Shown piece after piece: positions 22,426 through 34,427 of a stretch of DNA of 64,000 nt. The stretch covers positions 62,001-126,000 of the forward strand of contig NZ_QLSZ01000010.1 of NCBI RefSeq assembly GCF_003268855.1, written 5' to 3'. A model generated the notes under the pieces. The model saw only the letters and a list, made by a program, of their open reading frames with translations, had not been told where the DNA came from and did no database searches. A program made the position numbers and the translations under genes. How positions within the stretch are numbered: the first letter of the stretch is position 1; each line of letters starts with the position of its first letter. The DNA comes from Flavobacterium aciduliphilum (GTDB lineage: Bacteria > Bacteroidota > Bacteroidia > Flavobacteriales > Flavobacteriaceae).

Positions 22426-22457
22426 TTGCAAATCGCTTATAATATTTTATAAATTTG
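22426..22457 (+). promoter_or_regulatory. Promoter of the polyamine operon
   Basis: TTG at 22426-22428 and TAAATTTG at 22450-22457 match the -33/-7 consensus with 21-base spacing. Transcription should begin close to the ATG of the small ORF at 22463, leaving a leader of about 230 bases before the decarboxylase. No comparable TAnnTTTG occurs between 22643 and 22695. Confidence 0.6.
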
Positions 22458-22462
22458 CCCTG

Positions 22463-22642
22463 ATGATAAAAAATAACTTTTCTAACAAACAGCGTGCTTT
22501 TACACTTAAAACAAGTAGTGGTTTTCAAGTGTTATGCGTAGCTTTTTTAACATCTGTGCGAACTATTCTTGGGTTGTTTTTAGAATTGTTTAAAACCGAA
22601 ACACCAAAATTACCCATAATTTATGCGAACATTAGAGTTTGA
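22463..22642 (+). CDS. 59-residue leader ORF upstream of arginine decarboxylase
   Basis: An open frame of 59 codons from ATG to TGA, basic and with a hydrophobic middle ('GFQVLCVAFLTSV', 'ILGLFLELF') and a C-terminus 'YANIRV'. I do not recognise a family. The promoter's -7 element ends five bases before the ATG, so the message may be nearly leaderless. It ends 54 bases before the speA start. It could be a small membrane peptide, a regulatory leader peptide for polyamine control, or chance coding within a structured RNA leader. Confidence 0.4.
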   Translation: MIKNNFSNKQRAFTLKTSSGFQVLCVAFLTSVRTILGLFLELFKTETPKLPIIYANIRV

Positions 22643-22695
22643 AAAATGATATTATTTAGTTTTTTAAATTATTCATTTTTTCAAATTTTTAAAGC

Positions 22696-24096
22696 ATGAA
22701 CACAAAATATTACGATCTCATCAATCAAACCTTTTACTTTCCTCAAGAAGGATTTTCTTTGAATAAAGATTCGCTTCAATTTCACAACATTGATTTGATG
22801 CATTTAGTAGAACAATATGGAACCCCCTTAAAATTTACTTATTTGCCACAAATATCAACCAACATTAATAAAGCTAAAGGTTGGTTTCGAAAAGCAATGG
22901 ACAAACTGAACTATGATGGTAAATATTATTATTGTTATTGTACCAAAAGTTCGCATTTCGAATTCATCATGAACGAGGCGTTCAAAAACAAGATTCATAT
23001 TGAAACTTCTTCGGCATTTGATATCAATATAGTAGAAAATTTATTAGAATCGGGTAAAATCAATAAGAATACCTATGTGGTTTGTAACGGTTTCAAACGA
23101 GACGAGTATATTGAAAATATTGCTCGATTGATTAATAACGGACATAAAAACACCATTCCTGTTATAGATAATTTTGAAGAACTTGATTTGCTGCAAGACA
23201 GCATTAAAGGAAAATTTAAAATTGGGATTCGAATTGCTGCAGAGGAAGAACCAAAATTTGAGTTTTACACCTCTCGTTTGGGTATCGGATATAAAGATAT
23301 TGTGCCCTTTTACAGAAAACAAATCCAAGAAAATAAAAAAGTAGAGTTGAAAATGCTACACTTTTTTATCAATACGGGGATTCGTGATACGGCTTACTAT
23401 TGGAACGAGTTATTAAAATGTATGAAAGTATACATTGCTTTGAAAAAAGAGTGCCCTACCTTAGATAGTTTAAACATTGGGGGTGGTTTTCCTATTAAAA
23501 ATTCCTTGGCTTTTGAATACGACTATCAATATATGGTAGAAGAAATTCTAAATCAAATTAAAATAGCTTGTGACGATGCGGAAGTTCCCGTACCCAATAT
23601 TTTCACTGAGTTTGGTTCCTTTACCGTAGGAGAATCAGGCGGCGCGATTTATCAAGTATTGTATCAGAAAAAACAAAACGATAGAGAAAATTGGAACATG
23701 ATTGATTCTTCTTTCATTACTACGTTACCCGATACTTGGGCCATCAACAAGCGATTTGTCATGCTGGCAGTAAACCGTTGGAATGATACCTATGAACGTG
23801 TGCTTTTAGGTGGTATGACGTGTGATAGCGATGATTATTACAATTCTGAACAACACATGAATGCGGTGTATTTACCCAAATATAACAAAGAGAAACCTTT
23901 ATATATAGGTTTTTTTAATACAGGCGCTTATCAAGAAACCATAGGTGGATTCGGAGGATTACACCATTGTCTTATTCCGCAACCTAAACATATTCTTATT
24001 GATAGAGATGAGAATGGGATACTAGCTACAGAAGTGTTTTCAGAACAGCAAACCTCTGAGGACGTGTTGAGTATATTAGGATACAATAAAAAGTAA
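22696..24096 (+). CDS. speA: Arginine decarboxylase, PLP fold-type III
   Basis: It converts arginine to agmatine, the first step of polyamine synthesis in the cytoplasm. The protein has 466 residues, the shorter Bacteroidota form. The PLP lysine is K84 in 'CYCTKSSHFEF', the phosphate-binding Gly-rich loop is 'LNIGGGFPI', and the C-terminal substrate motif is 'GMTCDSDDYY' near residue 376. It lies downstream of a strong promoter and a small leader ORF, and 74 bases upstream of a deoxyhypusine-synthase-like gene. No agmatinase or agmatine deiminase is present between them, so the next step must be encoded elsewhere. Confidence 0.88.
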   Translation: MNTKYYDLINQTFYFPQEGFSLNKDSLQFHNIDLMHLVEQYGTPLKFTYLPQISTNINKAKGWFRKAMDKLNYDGKYYYCYCTKSSHFEFIMNEAFKNKIHIETSSAFDINIVENLLESGKINKNTYVVCNGFKRDEYIENIARLINNGHKNTIPVIDNFEELDLLQDSIKGKFKIGIRIAAEEEPKFEFYTSRLGIGYKDIVPFYRKQIQENKKVELKMLHFFINTGIRDTAYYWNELLKCMKVYIALKKECPTLDSLNIGGGFPIKNSLAFEYDYQYMVEEILNQIKIACDDAEVPVPNIFTEFGSFTVGESGGAIYQVLYQKKQNDRENWNMIDSSFITTLPDTWAINKRFVMLAVNRWNDTYERVLLGGMTCDSDDYYNSEQHMNAVYLPKYNKEKPLYIGFFNTGAYQETIGGFGGLHHCLIPQPKHILIDRDENGILATEVFSEQQTSEDVLSILGYNKK

Positions 24097-25156: not shown

Positions 25157-25564
25157 ATGAAAAGAATTATTGTTGATTATGCCAAGCTCACGAGCGATAT
25201 TTTAAATTTATTAGTTGAAAAATTTCCAGATGGATATGATGATACAGATATTATTCGCTTTCGAAATGCTCATAACGAATTAGTAGAAGCTGTAGAAGTT
25301 CGTACAGAAGATACCATCTATTTGGTTAAAGTAAGTACTAAATTAGCGAGTAGAATGGAAAAATTTGAAGATGATGAGGATCTTGATGCGGTAATCGAAC
25401 CTATTGCTCCAGTAAAAGGTATTGATTTAGATGATGATGATTTACCAAGCGAAGAAGAAGAAGATGATCATTATAACGACAAGAATGACTTAGATGATGA
25501 GGATGATGAAGATTCAGATTCAAGTCCTTCTGACAATTTTGATGATGCCGATGATGAAGAGTAG
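25157..25564 (+). CDS. Hypothetical protein with conserved N-terminal domain and long acidic tail
   Basis: A protein of 135 residues. Residues 1-75 form a small alpha/beta domain ('DYAKLTSDILNLLVEKFPDGYDD', 'VRTEDTIYLVKVS'). Residues 76-135 are almost entirely Asp, Glu and Ser, a disordered tail. The N-terminal domain appears to be widespread in Bacteroidota, where it is often labelled hypothetical or, without good reason, primase. It is 11 bases after the deoxyhypusine-synthase-like gene and probably ends the polyamine operon. An acidic tail could bind polyamines or a basic partner; this is speculation. Confidence 0.72.
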   Translation: MKRIIVDYAKLTSDILNLLVEKFPDGYDDTDIIRFRNAHNELVEAVEVRTEDTIYLVKVSTKLASRMEKFEDDEDLDAVIEPIAPVKGIDLDDDDLPSEEEEDDHYNDKNDLDDEDDEDSDSSPSDNFDDADDEE

Positions 25565-34029: not shown

Positions 34030-34427
34030 GGGGTCGACTGGTTTTGACAGCGAGTGGAATTGATTAGTAAGCACGTCGAGCTTTGTACTTTTAGCTCGTA
34101 AATCCAAAGGTACGACCTTATAAACGGCGAAAATAATTACGCTTTAGCTGCTTAATCCGAAGTTTAGTACGATTTGCCCAGTTCCTACAAGGTAGGAAAG
34201 CTGAATTCACCTCAAAAGCCTTGGTTTGTGGCGGTTGGTTATGGTGAACCGGAAAAATAAACCTAGGAAAGGTAATGCTTTAAATCCTTTCTGACACTAA
34301 TAAAGCTAAGCAAAAAGTGGCTGTTTTTGGCCTGCCTTTTTGTCGAAAAAATAATCAAAAACTAAGCGTGTAGAAAGCTATTTGATTGCTTGTTTGGACC
34401 CGAGTTCGATTCTCGGCGACTCCACCA
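34030..34427 (+). ncRNA. ssrA: tmRNA (transfer-messenger RNA), one-piece
   Basis: It rescues stalled ribosomes with SmpB. The 5' end GGGGTCG (34030-34036) pairs with CGACTCC (34417-34423), followed by an encoded ACCA. The T-arm sequence GAGTTCGATTCTC is present. The tag-coding part, 34126-34155, starts at a GGC resume codon and reads GENNYALAA followed by TAA, the type of tag found in flavobacteria. Total length is about 398 bases. A strong promoter precedes it and a terminator follows. Confidence 0.96.

Follow-up and report, generated by a model that had tools for sequence, protein, structure and literature searches.

A predicted leader peptide and a co-evolving hairpin in front of the arginine decarboxylase gene speA in Flavobacterium, with a structured RNA at the leader start in related genera

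Results

The speA locus and its promoter

The stretch of DNA analyzed here (the window) comprises 64,000 nucleotides of Flavobacterium aciduliphilum (contig NZ_QLSZ01000010.1, positions 62,001 to 126,000). On its forward strand lies a gene for a speA-type, PLP-dependent arginine decarboxylase (22696 to 24096), the product of which matches arginine decarboxylases, yet scores below the NCBIfam cutoff for speA; the majority of its 80 named relatives are from Flavobacterium. It is followed on the same strand by genes for a deoxyhypusine-synthase family protein (PF01916; 24171 to 25145), with a homospermidine biosynthesis protein as best NCBIfam match, again below the cutoff, and for a small acidic protein (25157 to 25564); aroB lies upstream of the speA leader. 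The best agmatinase match in this genome, under the cutoff, is located on another contig (G000:C2:131917), and visual inspection of a locus in another genome (L389, genome G247) indicated speA, then an agmatinase-like gene and then a deoxyhypusine-synthase-like gene.

The preliminary description of this locus had pointed out a TTG-N21-TAAATTTG promoter 239 nucleotides before speA and an uninterrupted 59-codon open reading frame (ORF) at the predicted transcript start, and both could be confirmed. The TTG (22426 to 22428, forward strand), representing the -33 element, is separated by 21 nucleotides from the -7 box TAAATTTG (22450 to 22457, forward strand), the end of which is 239 nucleotides away from speA. 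The ORF (22463 to 22642, forward strand) ends, after the ten codons LPIIYANIRV (22610 to 22639), with a UGA stop codon (22640 to 22642) and is separated by a 53-nucleotide spacer from the speA ATG at 22696. No Pfam or NCBIfam match to the ORF was found, and an Rfam scan of the whole window at gathering score returned only a tmRNA, with no cis-regulatory family over the leader. This tmRNA gene (RF00023) is found at 34030 to 34427.

Of 84 distinct Flavobacterium loci, 78 have a -7 box that ends exactly 5 nucleotides before the leader ATG (4, 6, or 7 nucleotides in the remaining 6), a regularity that argues against chance. A TTG occupies the same position as in the window, -37 relative to the ATG, in 58 of these upstream regions, and 68 have one within -41 to -33. 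Promoters of Flavobacterium johnsoniae have their start site 4 to 5 nucleotides after the box, and Bacteroidota mRNAs are described as devoid of Shine-Dalgarno sites (PMC6847099). From the 5-nucleotide spacing combined with the F. johnsoniae rule, the speA mRNA is predicted to begin with the leader ATG itself or with a single base ahead of it (22462 to 22463, forward strand; not mapped in this strain) and should thus be leaderless or carry a 1-nucleotide leader. Such a transcript, if it starts at the ATG, would have a leader region consisting of the ORF and about 55 nucleotides, leaving no room for an aptamer before the ORF. A -7 box within 40 nucleotides of speA was present in 0 of 93 Flavobacterium loci and 1 of 115 loci of the family set, compared to 8 of 20 loci from elsewhere in the order and 5 of 20 from the class; in other families, the box is more often located near speA itself.

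Conservation of the leader ORF in Flavobacterium

The leader ORF was identified in 109 of 111 Flavobacterium loci (a set in which some genomes are present in both collections), its frame ending 50 to 69 nucleotides before speA with the same C terminus; the two loci without a call (L102 and L114) lie at a contig end with too little upstream DNA and were dropped. Among 93 distinct leader coding sequences, 77 have 59 codons and 11 have 57, the other five ranging from 54 to 58. An additional 26 divergent members from Flavobacterium, not counting a partial speA (L350) and a second copy in one genome (L351), were inspected, and the leader was intact in 22, with a spacer of 136 nucleotides in two and 93 nucleotides in one. 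Of the others, L341 has a short leader with the same C-terminal end, and L332 has that end as well, in a leader interrupted by in-frame stops. Finally, L327 and L333 (G039 and G081; genomes of 2.0 to 2.1 Mb) have no leader, and their -7 box is located 49 nucleotides before speA.

Across 179 pairs of leaders, pN/pS was 0.143 in the leader frame, compared to 1.55 and 1.43 in the other two, so that protein-like selection is confined to this frame; the ratio was 0.106 for the last twelve codons and 0.021 for speA itself. The body of the peptide diverges greatly among clades, and its length, last ten residues, and stop are held. When 199 Flavobacterium genomes were searched for the peptide, 120 had a match at an E value of ≤1, but just 13, including the window's genome, had one at ≤0.001. 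Many of the weaker matches lay elsewhere in the genomes and were judged to be due to chance; in the window's genome, the sole match was the ORF itself.

The last ten residues follow the pattern L-x-I-x-[YF]-[AES]-N-[IL]-R-V, directly followed by UGA, with N at -4 and R at -2 invariant (93/93 distinct sequences each) and L at -10, I at -8, and V at -1 present in 92. The stop codon is TGA in 89 of the 93 leaders, as opposed to none of the 93 speA genes in the same loci, and among the 39 ORFs of the window that have at least 180 codons, only 2 end with TGA. While the conserved arginine is written with six different codons in these leaders, which indicates that the residue matters rather than one particular tRNA, the rare codons AGG and CGG together account for 42 of the 93, compared to about 7% of arginine codons in the window's long ORFs. 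The valine codon before the stop is GTT in 89 of 93. These biases at the arginine and valine codons could be due to RNA pairing or to slow decoding. A frameshift at GUU-UGA into speA was considered and rejected: the +1 frame in the window stops after two codons, and spacer length varies. On the basis of these sequence comparisons, we conclude that the ORF is a conserved, putatively translated leader peptide of speA.

A pairing signal may also be present within the leader bodies, where a clade-specific fold outperformed codon-shuffled alignments in all four clades analyzed (z scores of -9.3, -2.8, -3.1, and -3.3), with pair changes in the largest clade being nearly all one-sided.

A hairpin between the leader stop and the speA start

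The region from 22610 to 22725 is predicted to fold at -19.3 kcal/mol (z score of -3.47; only -1.66 for the longer stretch from 22463 to 22740). The putative hairpin (22634 to 22689, forward strand) has a 5' arm (22634 to 22649) spanning the arginine and valine codons, the stop codon, and seven further bases, and a 3' arm (22673 to 22689) ending at position -7 of speA. The window fold also contains an outer helix (22620 to 22626 with 22694 to 22700, forward strand) that would pair with the speA AUG, the conservation of which has not been shown. In 62 nonredundant loci, the median fold z score was -1.96, and the stop region formed at least 6 pairs with the region of the speA start in all 62; shuffled sequences reached this in 44.9 loci on average and in 50 at most.

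Native arms outpaired chimeric, cross-species arms in 85% of the 62 Flavobacterium loci (P = 6.6e-9), with three of four controls not significant and one significant in the opposite direction (P = 0.024). The same test on 72 other loci of the family yielded a P value of 2.8e-10, with two nonsignificant controls. The stem base (last codons against the speA start) gave a weaker signal in Flavobacterium (P = 0.0014) and none outside the genus (P = 0.5). Since the sequences are related, all of these P values are too small.

When the RNA covered by a ribosome at the leader stop was removed, the predicted accessibility of speA positions -20 to +3 rose from 0.390 to 0.670 in native Flavobacterium sequences and from 0.491 to 0.533 with shuffled spacers, that is, a gain of 0.280 versus 0.041. 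Loci from elsewhere in the family showed a gain of 0.137 versus 0.019, and the accessibility of the free RNA was there not clearly below that of shuffled sequences (P = 0.094).

RNAalifold proposed no consensus pairs in intergenic alignments of 44 and 18 sequences; because A-U stems with variable loops align poorly, we relied on duplex, shuffle, and named-stem tests instead. In the last of these, based on 18 hand-picked sequences, 76.9% of cells were paired, compared to at most 50% for slid versions, with only modest covariation: among 500 shuffles, the covariation score was equaled by 3, the number of pairs with double changes by 44, and the number of pair types by 235. Comparison, in the form of alignment-free tests and in spite of the negative RNAalifold result, supports a modeled hairpin that co-evolves and covers the speA initiation region.

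The preliminary description had suggested a leader peptide or structured RNA before speA, a proposal borne out by the protein-level selection, the near-invariant C terminus, and the co-evolving hairpin, and had called for a comparison across flavobacteria of conserved peptide versus conserved RNA pairing; that comparison returned both, the pairing by alignment-free tests.

Leader ORFs and a structured RNA in other genera

In 79 of 110 unique Flavobacteriaceae loci from outside Flavobacterium, speA is preceded by an ORF of 45 or more codons that ends with [RQMLK][IVLM]. In a larger set of 115 loci, the one used for the -7 box count above, which includes a duplicate (L276, of L250) and four loci from other families (L273, L277, L279, and L280), all five of which were dropped from later family counts and from the arm test, 94 have such an ORF; 82 of these end with I or V. 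The penultimate residue is R or Q in 67 (R in 34 and Q in 33), and the stop codon is TGA in 74. Reverse-complement sequences, used as a control, gave 25 ORFs; in the order set, 1 of 20 loci had one, and in the class set 7 of 20, none ending with [RQ][IV].

A conserved block, FGLLKIRKSYSKAAYRLSNRILKLTS, was initially considered as a conserved peptide and rejected on the basis of its pN/pS ratio (0.90 in frame versus 0.80 and 0.73); the absence of protein-level selection in this frame led us to a structured RNA. Examples (L208:195-307, minus strand; L195:446-558, plus strand) overlap the beginning of the leader ORF of speA. In an alignment (A4) of 36 nonredundant copies, from which the L208 row was left out, 98.0% of cells are paired over 34 pairs, pseudoknot included, with 79 double changes in 20 pairs; none of 500 shuffles did as well, and slid versions reached at most 55.3%. 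On nearly the same alignment, RNAalifold proposed 29 of these pairs unaided, 19 of them with double changes. The invariant ends of the RNA are partly a selection artifact, as copies were chosen by a seed motif. The predicted architecture is a branched fold of five helices and a pseudoknot, associated with an ORF of about 55 codons. No Rfam match at an E value of ≤5 was found over the RNA in ten loci. A Flavo-1 RNA (RF01705) was located in L195 (276 to 355) and L181 (261 to 351), above the gathering score in L195 only; it lies about 90 to 95 nucleotides upstream of the RNA in both and was rejected as the leader.

The leader start codon sits in the loop of the first hairpin of the RNA (TTG in 46, ATG in 10, and GTG in 5 of 61 leaders), and 60 of 61 of these frames run for at least 45 codons before a stop, which is TGA in 55 of the 60. 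Protein-level selection is absent from the 32 codons that follow the start and are inside the RNA (pN/pS of 0.84 versus 0.78 and 0.68) but evident in the last 16 codons (0.34 versus 1.43 and 1.62). With selection confined to the C-terminal codons, a single ORF carries two modules, one of RNA and one of peptide.

A model of the RNA (R1) matched 105 of 199 Flavobacteriaceae genomes (about one per genus), the copy with the highest score being in G367, and 76 of the 110 non-Flavobacterium speA loci (71/100 plus 5/10; the weakest counted, L070, at an E value of 0.0046). By these criteria, 68 of the 110 loci have both RNA and ORF, 8 the RNA only, 11 the ORF only, and 23 neither. In another family of the order, one weak match (E value of 0.0055) was found. 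R1 had no match in the window at an E value of ≤10, in the window's genome at ≤0.01, or in 58 Flavobacterium loci at ≤1. The RNA was absent from 196 of 199 Flavobacterium genomes (E value of ≤0.1), the other three having weak hits in other contexts, by visual inspection inside coding sequence. A broader model (R2), run without filters on 20 Flavobacterium loci, gave nothing below an E value of 0.95; one of its matches (E value of 1.1) is inside a Flavobacterium leader (L031, 1324 to 1374). As far as sequence can tell, this type of speA leader is widespread in Flavobacteriaceae, and its peptide form is the one found in the window.

Discussion

We consider it fairly probable, though by no means settled, that speA is controlled by translational attenuation, with a leader peptide made from the mRNA 5' end, the slow termination of which opens the hairpin over speA. 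Translation of the leader would begin at the extreme 5' end of the speA mRNA. While halted at the UGA codon, a ribosome would cover the 5' arm, so that the hairpin cannot form and the speA start is free, and its departure would allow the hairpin to close; a waiting ribosome would thus mean that speA is on, because the hairpin is kept open. The sequence ANIRV-UGA probably slows termination. Such arrest is inferred only: fixed last residues and a UGA codon, combined with a body that is free to vary, are what would be expected if the nascent chain governed slow release. The locus shares with known ribosome-arrest leaders the conserved residues near the stop, the protein-conserved ORF upstream of a gene, and, by prediction only, structured RNA that covers the downstream start and could be opened by a stalled ribosome. 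Termination is probably tuned by a small molecule from the arginine/polyamine pathway, although the identity of this molecule is a guess; the simplest guess would be that arginine switches speA on, and a polyamine shortage slowing release is an alternative. Sensing of arginine or polyamines by the leader has not been shown.

Plain translational coupling, in which ribosomes translating the leader melt the hairpin at a constant rate without arrest or sensing, would require no more than the leader, the hairpin, and the 50- to 69-nucleotide spacing seen in the 93 leaders; the last ten residues, the UGA codon, and the fixed length are not needed for it, yet all three are held, and we regard it as unlikely, without dismissing it. 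A classical attenuator counting charged tRNA-Arg at the penultimate codon, to which the invariant arginine and its frequent rare codons might point, seems improbable to us: a stretch of codons specifying the same amino acid is lacking, the conserved end offers one arginine codon only, written six ways, and in the other genera glutamine is as frequent at that position as arginine (33 versus 34 of 94). Moreover, arginine shortage would in that case open speA, the product of which consumes arginine.

Protein-level selection across the whole ORF might instead reflect a small protein that acts after its release, for instance, on SpeA; with a body that varies greatly by clade next to a fixed C terminus and stop, and without any peptide match in the window's genome beyond the ORF itself, this appears very improbable. 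Even less credit, in our judgment, is due to transcription attenuation between leader and speA, by Rho or at an intrinsic terminator. Rho does act in the SpeFL/orf34 system (PMC6386406), but just 50 to 69 nucleotides of AT-rich RNA separate the stop from speA here, and the hairpins are A-U rich and, judged by eye and not by a terminator scan, have no clear U-tract.

Slow termination at the leader stop, the reading preferred here, has parallels in known systems. In Salmonella, SpeFL/orf34 comprises 34 codons starting at +32 of the mRNA and ending with Arg34 and a UGA stop, and its translation opens a structure over the speF ribosome site, with Rho-dependent control and the speF start at nucleotide 516 (PMC6386406); SpeFL is an ornithine sensor that blocks RF1 (PMC8429421). 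The likeness is one of layout, that is, a leader peptide ahead of a polyamine decarboxylase gene (PMC6386406). The window leader differs in its 59 codons, leaderless promoter geometry, 53-nucleotide spacer, C-terminal motif, and occurrence in Bacteroidota, and, judged by spacer length (50 to 69 nucleotides in the 93 leaders), the long spacer with a Rho site has no counterpart here. The two peptide sequences are not known to be related.

TnaC, which arrests at UGA through inhibition of RF2, resembles the speA leader in its UGA stop and penultimate arginine (Arg23, adjoining the last residue, Pro24), but its sequence and target gene are different, and arrest has been demonstrated for TnaC and is only inferred here (PMC8429421). 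In vitro arrest has also been described for a peptide from Bacteroidota that has a conserved NSP-stop, the stop codon apparently being of importance; this class shares with the speA leader the phylum and a C-terminal motif directly before the stop, but is found upstream of secDF (by the name uA, also secA) and ends with proline (PMC10987492). In F. johnsoniae, structure near the start codon accompanies weaker translation (PMC6847099).

In most other genera examined, folded RNA around the leader start codon appears to add a second control, on leader initiation. We tentatively, and with somewhat less than even confidence, extend this to a two-module speA leader across Flavobacteriaceae, in which a riboswitch-like RNA near the transcript start would gate the leader start codon and the peptide and UGA would then open the hairpin, with Flavobacterium having a leaderless, peptide-only form. 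The odc1 motif of alphaproteobacteria similarly combines a pseudoknot and an upstream ORF with a UUG start at a polyamine decarboxylase gene, but has one hairpin and 11 codons rather than five helices, a pseudoknot, and about 55 codons (PMC8632094); the window lacks the family RNA. The spermidine riboswitch, a SAM-I variant, is likewise linked to polyamine biosynthesis genes, but has a SAM-I fold and acts by transcription termination (PMC10853860), whereas no Rfam match overlapped the family RNA in the ten loci scanned. In Flavobacterium psychrophilum, 64 structured 5' regions have been described (PMC9723704).

While leader peptides and translational attenuation are already known as kinds of control, we did not find this family, the leaderless start, or the pairing with a new RNA in print, and a search limited to open-license literature returned no published leader or RNA at speA in flavobacteria. 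If the proposed mechanism is correct, it represents a polyamine control element of Bacteroidota that can be traced across the family as RNA plus peptide or as peptide alone. With almost no 5' untranslated region before it, the speA leader would also be a clean case of leaderless initiation in a phylum without Shine-Dalgarno sites (PMC6847099).

The strong covariation, combined with the absence of an Rfam match in the ten loci scanned, makes the family RNA a testable riboswitch candidate, and its partner genes, encoding SpeA, a small acidic protein, and a small exported-looking protein, may inform on the ligand. In L383 and L384, both from genomes without a speA match, the RNA precedes a gene for a small acidic protein homologous to the product of the window ORF at 25157 to 25564 (76% identical over 75 residues in one case and 68% over 68 in the other), which suggests that this protein is part of polyamine physiology. 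Second copies of the RNA were observed before a gene for an exported-looking protein of ~100 to 113 amino acids (..DGYEDGTYYFTDS..) in L385, L386, and L387, and the one member scanned had no significant Pfam match. By visual inspection, the RNA in L388 precedes a glyoxalase-like gene.
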